Shown here: one piece after another, positions 4,224-10,087 of the stretch
How the letters are laid out: each line of letters starts with the position of its first letter
Position numbering within the stretch: position 1 is the stretch's first letter
From: Paracoccaceae bacterium
Lineage (GTDB): Bacteria; Pseudomonadota; Alphaproteobacteria; Rhodobacterales; Rhodobacteraceae
Assembly: GCA_024639125.1 (NCBI GenBank)
Contig: JAHEJA010000023.1
Location: 1 to 64,000, forward strand
Length of the DNA stretch: 64,000 nt
Direction: 5' to 3'
Notes under the pieces: model-generated
What the model saw: the letters and a program-made list of their open reading frames with translations, nothing else
What the model was told of the DNA's origin: nothing
Database searches by the model: none
Position numbers and translations under genes: made by a program

Positions 4224-9225
<5,002 letters not shown>

Positions 9226-9232
9226 AATATTT

Positions 9233-9257
9233 GTTCTCAAATGTTCTTAAAAAGTTC
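9233..9257 (+). promoter_or_regulatory. LexA/SOS box (tandem GTTC half-sites)
   Basis: Three GTTC half-sites lie in direct orientation at 9233-9236, 9243-9246 and 9254-9257. The last two form an exact GTTC-N7-GTTC with an A/T-rich spacer, which is the SOS box known for Rhodobacter and other Alphaproteobacteria. The first pair is spaced by six bases. The site is 56 bp upstream of the small gene at 9314 and 8 bp past the recG stop, so it most plausibly controls the small gene. Confidence 0.75.
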
Positions 9258-9313
9258 TTTACATGATTGTTAATAAATGAGAACAAATTAGCAACACAAA
9301 GGGAGTTGCTGAA

Positions 9314-9436
9314 ATGTTCGCAGAAGTGAAATCAATTGTTAAAGCCTCGGGTACGCGTTTTGCCTATGACGCACTTGGCGCCGTTTCTTTGATCGTGTTG
9401 TTGATCGGTTCTTTGCATCTTCCAACTGTGTTTTGA
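9314..9436 (+). CDS. SOS-controlled 40-residue single-span membrane protein
   Basis: This short ORF begins with ATG at 9314, seven bases after a GGGAG ribosome-binding site, and ends at TGA 9436. The 40-residue product has a short basic/polar N-terminus (MFAEVKSIVKASG...) and one hydrophobic stretch of about 18 residues (LGAVSLIVLLIGSLHLP), so an inner-membrane single-span protein is expected. It has its own upstream LexA box and a strong terminator about 100 bp downstream, which argues for a real transcription unit. Caulobacter SidA is a 29-residue SOS-induced membrane division inhibitor; this protein fits the same size, topology and control, but I see no clear sequence identity and the function is inferred. 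Confidence 0.7.
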   Translation: MFAEVKSIVKASGTRFAYDALGAVSLIVLLIGSLHLPTVF

Positions 9437-9538
9437 TCTGCCTTCATAACCCTAGTAGGATTTTCCCCAAGGTCCGTCACATTCCCCATCTTGTTGGTCT
9501 GCCTACTAACACGTGACACCACTAGGTTTATGTTTTAC

Positions 9539-9573
9539 CCGCCGCCATCCTTGTGATTTGCGGCGGTTTTTTT
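9539..9573 (+). terminator. Rho-independent terminator
   Basis: The arms CCGCCGC (9539-9545) and GCGGCGG (9560-9566) form a 7-bp G/C stem with a 14-nt loop, followed directly by seven T residues (9567-9573). It ends the SOS-controlled small transcription unit and runs into the convergent NifU-like gene. The 100 bp before it (9437-9538) hold no ORF but have competing pairings: CCTAGT (9451-9456) with ACTAGG (9521-9526), or TAGTAGG (9453-9459) with CCTACTA (9502-9508). Confidence 0.88.
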
Positions 9574-10024
9574 ATTCATGTGCTTTTGCTAAAATCTGCT
9601 CTGCCGCTTCGACAGAGGCTTCAATTGCCAATAGGATGGACGCATGGCGATTTTTGAAGTCACGCGCAGGTTCCAAAACTGCCAAAGTATCAAACGGCGC
9701 GGCGGGAACAGGGCCGCCGTGTTTTAGCATCGCGCGCAATTCGTCTCGTGCTGCAGTGATTTCTGCCACGTTGCAACCCACTATAGCCGTTCCAATGACG
9801 GATGCTGCCGCTTGGCCCAAAGCACAGGCTTTGACATCTTGCCCATAGGCAGTCACGATCCCGTCTTGGACATTTATGTCCACTGTCACGCTTGACCCAC
9901 AGAGCGGGCTTCTTTTGCGTACAGTCGCCATTGGGCTGTCCAATCGATCGGTGTGCGAAATATCAGCGGCAAGCGCCAAGATTTTGGAAGAATATAGTTT
10001 GATCAGATCATTATCAGCGGACAT
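9572..10024 (-). CDS. NifU/IscU-like iron-sulfur scaffold family protein
   Basis: This 150-residue protein belongs to the NifU N-terminal / IscU scaffold family. Cys residues sit in PLCGSSV and KACALGQA, matching the first two ligand cysteines of IscU. The third canonical Cys near the C-terminus is absent; a different Cys occurs in IVGCNVAEI. No cysteine desulfurase or Suf/Isc partner is adjacent. The ATG at 10024 is chosen because AAGGAA lies just upstream. The stop codon lies in the T-run of the convergent terminator. It may be a specialised or carrier-type member rather than the main scaffold. Confidence 0.8.
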   Translation of the reverse strand: MSADNDLIKLYSSKILALAADISHTDRLDSPMATVRKRSPLCGSSVTVDINVQDGIVTAYGQDVKACALGQAAASVIGTAIVGCNVAEITAARDELRAMLKHGGPVPAAPFDTLAVLEPARDFKNRHASILLAIEASVEAAEQILAKAHE

Positions 10025-10087
10025 GGGCTTTTCCTTTTTGGTCTTACCCAATACATAGAAAGGAATTCGTGTAATGCAAAAGGTTTT

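Follow-up and report, generated by a model that had tools for sequence, protein, structure and literature searches.

The transcription unit behind recG

The window analysed here is a 64,000-nucleotide stretch of DNA from a Paracoccaceae bacterium. Between the recG stop codon and a convergent gene it contains a compact transcription unit, whose features are as follows.

9223-9225: recG stop codon, upstream edge of the unit
9233-9236, plus strand: third GTTC half-site, N6 ahead of the operator box; each position conserved in 48-51 of 52 loci
9243-9257, plus strand: predicted LexA operator, GTTC-N7-GTTC; in 52/52 homologous loci, with the same box at lexA and recA
9258-9263, plus strand: TTTACA, probable -35 element abutting the operator; TTTAC conserved, promoter role putative
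9279-9287, plus strand: GAGAACAAA, putative -10-like element and/or inverted LexA half-site; 45-51 of 52 loci per position, most 49-51
9290-9310, plus strand: leader hairpin AGCAAC-ACAAAGGGA-GTTGCT (N9 in the middle), with the Shine-Dalgarno region in loop and stem
9300-9305, plus strand: AGGGAG, ribosome-binding site
9314-9436, plus strand: ORF of a 40-residue microprotein, ATG at 9314 and TGA ending at 9436; predicted short N-terminal helix and one transmembrane helix
9437-9540, plus strand: structured 3′UTR RNA, about 104 nt; folding z of -2.67 for the window copy, strongly covarying across the family
9445-9456 with 9521-9532, plus strand: closing helix of the 3′UTR RNA
9458-9475 and 9492-9511, plus strand: internal hairpins of the 3′UTR RNA
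9493-9504, plus strand: GUUGGUCUGCCU, which can form 12 pairs in a row, G-U included, with the ribosome-binding site of this genome's ftsZ
9539-9573, plus strand: intrinsic terminator CCGCCGCC...GCGGCGG-T7, visible in sequence and fold; motif conserved across loci
9572-10051, minus strand: iron-sulfur scaffold-like gene, convergent, downstream edge of the unit

Only about 90 nt are available between recG and the microprotein ORF. A simple terminator scan gave no match at the stem and T-run of 9539-9573, probably because the loop exceeds the limit of the scan. The arrangement is best explained as a monocistronic unit that would yield two products from one short transcript. All the elements named in the original prediction are in place: the GTTC at 9233-9236, the GTTC-N7-GTTC box at 9243-9257, AGGGAG at 9300-9305, the ATG at 9314, the 40 codons and the terminator at 9539-9573. 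The extent it gave (9233-9436) is too short, stopping at the microprotein stop codon and leaving out the structured RNA at 9437-9540. Its interpretation stands as regards an SOS-type operator and a conserved membrane microprotein and misses the RNA half of the unit, which may itself have a part in division.

The exact GTTC-N7-GTTC box is found once in the 64 kb window, against 1.87 occurrences expected from its composition, so that the exact box alone is no evidence. Exact boxes elsewhere in the genome mostly fall inside genes. On one contig, repeated coding sequence contains three exact GTTCCTAAAATGTTC copies (G000:C9:69059, 70058 and 71783, approximately 1-1.7 kb apart); exact boxes can therefore be coding coincidences. 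The significance of the operator comes from comparison across homologous loci. For this comparison 52 distinct loci were fetched through the protein and not through the DNA motif, and all 52 carry GTTC-N7-GTTC upstream of the ORF. The flanking GTTC (10 bp upstream), TTTAC and, 16 nt on, GAGAACAAA are conserved at around 85-100% per position in the same loci. In the window GAGAACAAA starts 15 nt past the -35-like hexamer TTTACA and may be the -10 region or an inverted LexA half-site. Scanning GTDB genome contigs with the extended operator pattern gave at least 119 matches; of the 119, 115 are listed directly behind recG, and most of these then have a microprotein ORF. The matches listed come from records named Rhodobacterales or labelled only as alphaproteobacterial.

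Both lexA and recA of the window's genome carry the same box directly upstream (G000:C30:25979-25993 and C29:9794-9808), and GTTC-N7-GTTC has been reported as an alphaproteobacterial LexA motif (PMC8565304). On these two grounds the presence of an SOS-type operator, as originally predicted, is supported at the level of sequence. The lexA and recA boxes are in reverse orientation to that of the microprotein (GAAC-N7-GAACAAA relative to the gene). A further box, GTTCTATATTTGTTC (G000:C17:65885-65899), lies in what appears by eye to be the region of a dnaE2-type or neighbouring SOS mutagenesis gene and is probably another SOS promoter.

A universal leader hairpin was ruled out, since the type seen at 9290-9310 is present in only 19/136 leaders. 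We note that a Paracoccus type, GGGCAAC...GTTGCCC, also surrounds the Shine-Dalgarno region. Folding of the 3′UTR back onto its own ribosome-binding site was likewise rejected, own pairs being no better than swapped ones. The locus shows no sign of an antisense RNA gene or a divergent promoter, and the 52-locus logo contains no conserved divergent promoter elements.

The microprotein

Searched with the single protein, 60 relatives yielded nine homologues, and all ten sequences align without large gaps. In these relatives recG is immediately upstream of the microprotein (9/9). The profile built from the ten sequences located a single copy of the microprotein in 254 of the 299 family genomes searched. 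A wider profile (A6, 42 rows) was run against 289 class genomes, mostly of families other than Rhodobacteraceae; five genomes matched, all of them Rhodobacteraceae and none outside. The reading frame is conserved in relatives with a dN/dS of around 0.20 over 36 independent pairs, not near one, and is by this measure under purifying selection.

The consensus of the microprotein is MxxxIKxxxxRSxxTLxxDAxGAxALxVxLxxxLHLPxLx, and the wide alignment shows no variation at D19, G22 and L34. The predicted structure consists of a short helix (residues 2-11) and a long hydrophobic helix (residues 13-39), with a mean pLDDT of 85.8. The long helix is predicted to be a single membrane span, in agreement with the membrane protein originally proposed. 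The positive-inside rule is an established guide to membrane protein topology; taken with the basic N-terminus, it suggests an N-in orientation. A plasmid search with one member of the family gave no match. Pfam and NCBIfam contain no convincing family match for the microprotein or its relatives, and the SulA domain (PF03846) was not identified in it by the Pfam search. Taken together, these observations support a real, conserved membrane protein specific to the Rhodobacteraceae.

The structured 3′UTR RNA and its candidate target

The 3′UTRs of the homologous loci share recurring motifs: UUUCUGCCUGCG straight after the stop codon, CUGUCCC, CUGCCUGUCC and CUGCCUC, followed by the CCGCCGCC...GGCGGCGG-T7 terminator. 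In individual folds a long-range helix encloses several hairpins and places the recurrent motifs in loops; the closing helix has at least 8 pairs in 118 of 145 3′UTRs. With the terminator removed, the mean folding z relative to shuffles is -2.27 (129 loci), compared to -0.05 and -0.17 for flanking controls from the recG end and the downstream gene.

A covariance model made from four sequences matched 62 of 100 sources, with one match each and at the 3′UTR position where checked. In the RNA alignment 91.4% of cells pair, versus 34-45% for slid versions, all 33 of 33 pairs show double-sided changes and the covariation score is 0.530 versus 0.158 shuffled and at most 0.101 slid; these figures are inflated because the alignment was fitted to the structure, yet the contrast is still large. 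When given the alignment and no structure, RNAalifold recovered 22 pairs, all with double-sided changes. A second RNA model gave matches in 43 of the 121 family genomes searched; of 114 genomes sampled across the class it matched a single one, itself a member of the Rhodobacteraceae. Among the whole-genome matches the RNA is located just 3′ of the microprotein wherever both positions are listed. The copy in the window has diverged: its best match to the family model (9434-9536) is weak, with E ~0.01 in 401 bases, and it folds with a z of -2.67 despite this score. The RNA sits in the 3′ part of an mRNA under LexA-type control and, judged by sequence and structure, ends in the intrinsic terminator. 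No Rfam family was found at or near gathering score; RAGATH-12 and other Rfam matches were discarded, being far below their gathering scores and not recurring in homologues. That neither product matches a catalogued gene or RNA family is probably because both are tiny.

As the only target to be tested we selected ftsZ, because an SOS-controlled RNA of Klebsiella, DinR, blocks the ftsZ ribosome-binding site (PMC10907235); the choice was made before any ftsZ sequence was seen. The sequence CAGGCGGA is present upstream of the ftsZ start in 68 of 78 family genomes and at 2 of 1022 background gene sites. It is found in none of 28 ftsZ genes outside the Rhodobacteraceae, where sites of the GGAG type are usual. 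In the Rhodobacteraceae the ribosome-binding site of ftsZ is both unusual and strongly conserved (loci L246-L266 and L307-L366; outside the family, L397-L425). The UCUGCCUG of the RNA pairs with CAGGCGGA through 8 pairs, one of them G-U; many species have a GGACAG after CAGGCGGA, and CUGUCC pairs with it. The ftsZ site TCAGGCGGACCAATC of the window's genome and GUUGGUCUGCCU of the RNA form 12 contiguous pairs, including G-U. This pairing is the best when compared with 360 sampled genes and is equalled by 0/500 shuffled RNAs; the 12-nt match lies partly inside a predicted stem. Across 51 genomes, the pairing of RNA with ftsZ has a mean percentile of 0.165 among shuffled RNAs. Full-length duplex energies were set aside as a target test, since the long bulged duplexes they produce are uninformative.

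The RNA may instead regulate many targets as a general anti-Shine-Dalgarno element, with ftsZ only incidentally among them; we regard this reading as quite possible, at somewhat less than even odds. Its loops are C-rich, and the main loop motifs can pair just as well with around 2-3% of the other ribosome-binding sites in relatives. When the whole RNA is used, ftsZ comes no higher than about 50th among 315-347 genes in two relatives. Species-specific coevolution of RNA and ftsZ is not significant (own versus swapped RNAs, p = 0.19), a further point for this reading. Against this, background genes pair with the RNA at a mean percentile of 0.51-0.53, no excess over shuffles, compared to 0.165 for ftsZ, and the unusual ftsZ site is not seen in the 28 genes from outside the family. 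The family-wide ftsZ site may have arisen in one evolutionary event, and for this reason its occurrence together with the RNA counts as weak evidence. We treat ftsZ as the leading candidate target suggested by complementarity, not as an established one; the RNA arm may target ftsZ or several mRNAs.

A proposed division checkpoint and its relation to known systems

The sequence itself shows an operator, a conserved ORF, a structured RNA, their linkage and the complementarity to ftsZ. Building on these, we propose a LexA-controlled division checkpoint with a protein arm that resembles SidA in action and an RNA arm that resembles DinR and is possibly directed against ftsZ; we put the probability of this reading at roughly 0.5. 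In undamaged cells LexA would occupy the GTTC repeats that abut the -35 region. DNA damage would lead to LexA cleavage and so to transcription of the unit, and translation of the mRNA would give the 40-residue inner-membrane microprotein, oriented N-in. The microprotein most likely packs against a membrane partner in the divisome and would delay division in the manner of Caulobacter SidA. The 3′ part of the transcript, presumably after processing, would fold into the conserved RNA and display its CUGCCUG/CUGUCC loops. This RNA most likely regulates by base pairing, and its leading candidate target is the ftsZ ribosome-binding site CAGGCGGA, as for DinR in Klebsiella.

No SulA scored over the cut-off in 101 Rhodobacteraceae genomes, and the open-licence literature searched contains no SOS division inhibitor for the family. 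Given the LexA-type control, the failure to find SulA and the SidA-like size, span and regulation, division delay during SOS is the most likely function of the unit. From the logic of its expression and the lack of SulA we infer a checkpoint role for the microprotein. A stronger version is somewhat unlikely in our view: that one LexA-controlled transcript stops division twice, through the microprotein on the divisome and through silencing of ftsZ by the RNA at a site maintained for that purpose across the Rhodobacteraceae.

It is unlikely that only the protein matters and that the conserved 3′UTR structure merely protects or terminates the mRNA. Structured 3′UTRs can stabilise mRNAs, and the Paracoccus loci (L071, L104, L116 and L130) retain the protein, in a 31-residue form without the N-terminal helix, while their 3′UTR is short. 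The RNA arm is therefore not universal, which suggests that the two arms are separable in evolution. Elsewhere, however, the loop sequences UUUCUGCCUG, CUGUCCC and CUGCCUGUCC are conserved while the stems covary, and a separate strong terminator lies downstream of the RNA. Conserved loops on covarying stems usually indicate that the loops have a function other than stability. Still more doubtful is a TisB/DinQ-type SOS membrane toxin that would depolarise the membrane and slow growth instead of inhibiting the divisome specifically, with the structured RNA parts regulating translation of the toxin: LexA control of a tiny single-span peptide fits the TisB/DinQ pattern and the Shine-Dalgarno region of the window does lie in a hairpin, but the short space before the ORF shows neither antisense RNA gene nor divergent promoter, the leader hairpin is confined to a minority of leaders, ribosome-binding sites pair with their own 3′UTR no better than with swapped ones, and D19, G22, L34 and P37 are so strongly conserved as to suggest a specific partner.

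On the checkpoint reading, the microprotein and RNA look like the missing cell-division brake of the Rhodobacteraceae. This marine and phototrophic family includes the Rhodobacter models and is among the most abundant cultivable marine bacteria. The unit would fill the vacant slot of an SOS division inhibitor and opens it to direct experiment; if the reading is correct, a single SOS transcript that couples microprotein and RNA is an old trait of the family and no local curiosity. No description of either product was found in the open-licence literature, and the main text of an in silico study on LexA in Dinoroseobacter makes no mention of recG. SOS membrane microproteins and SOS 3′UTR sRNAs are each known; their combination in a conserved, family-wide core unit appears to be undescribed.

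SidA of Caulobacter crescentus is a LexA-controlled inner-membrane protein of 29 residues (PMC4211646). The microprotein shares with it LexA-type control, tiny size, a (predicted) inner-membrane location and an alphaproteobacterial host; it differs in its 40 residues, its conserved D-A-x-G...L-H-L-P pattern, its position behind recG and its structured RNA tail. The likeness is one of size, membrane span and regulation and not demonstrably of sequence. DinR is a LexA-controlled sRNA from the 3′ end of Klebsiella dinI, and its pairing stretch has been described as Klebsiella-specific (PMC10907235). Here too the RNA occupies the 3′ part of a small-protein mRNA under LexA-type control and has a candidate pairing with the ftsZ ribosome-binding site, but the host gene is unrelated and the RNA is a covarying multi-helix structure conserved family-wide. 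The dicBF operon of E. coli, carried on a cryptic prophage, encodes the small protein DicB and the sRNA DicF, both acting on division (PMC10448788). It resembles the present unit in producing a small protein and a small RNA, for which a division role is here proposed, whereas the present locus belongs to the core chromosome and has a LexA-type operator. TisB and DinQ of E. coli are SOS-induced membrane peptides with antisense RNAs and act as toxins (PMC8145889, PMC3567139); the microprotein is likewise a predicted SOS-controlled membrane peptide, and differs in that no antisense RNA was seen at its locus. EcpR1 of Sinorhizobium differs from the present unit in belonging to the stringent-response regulon, in lying behind divK-pleD and in targeting dnaA and gcrA (PMC4414408); as a stress-induced alphaproteobacterial sRNA whose conserved loop acts on cell-cycle mRNAs, it can be likened to the 3′UTR RNA.
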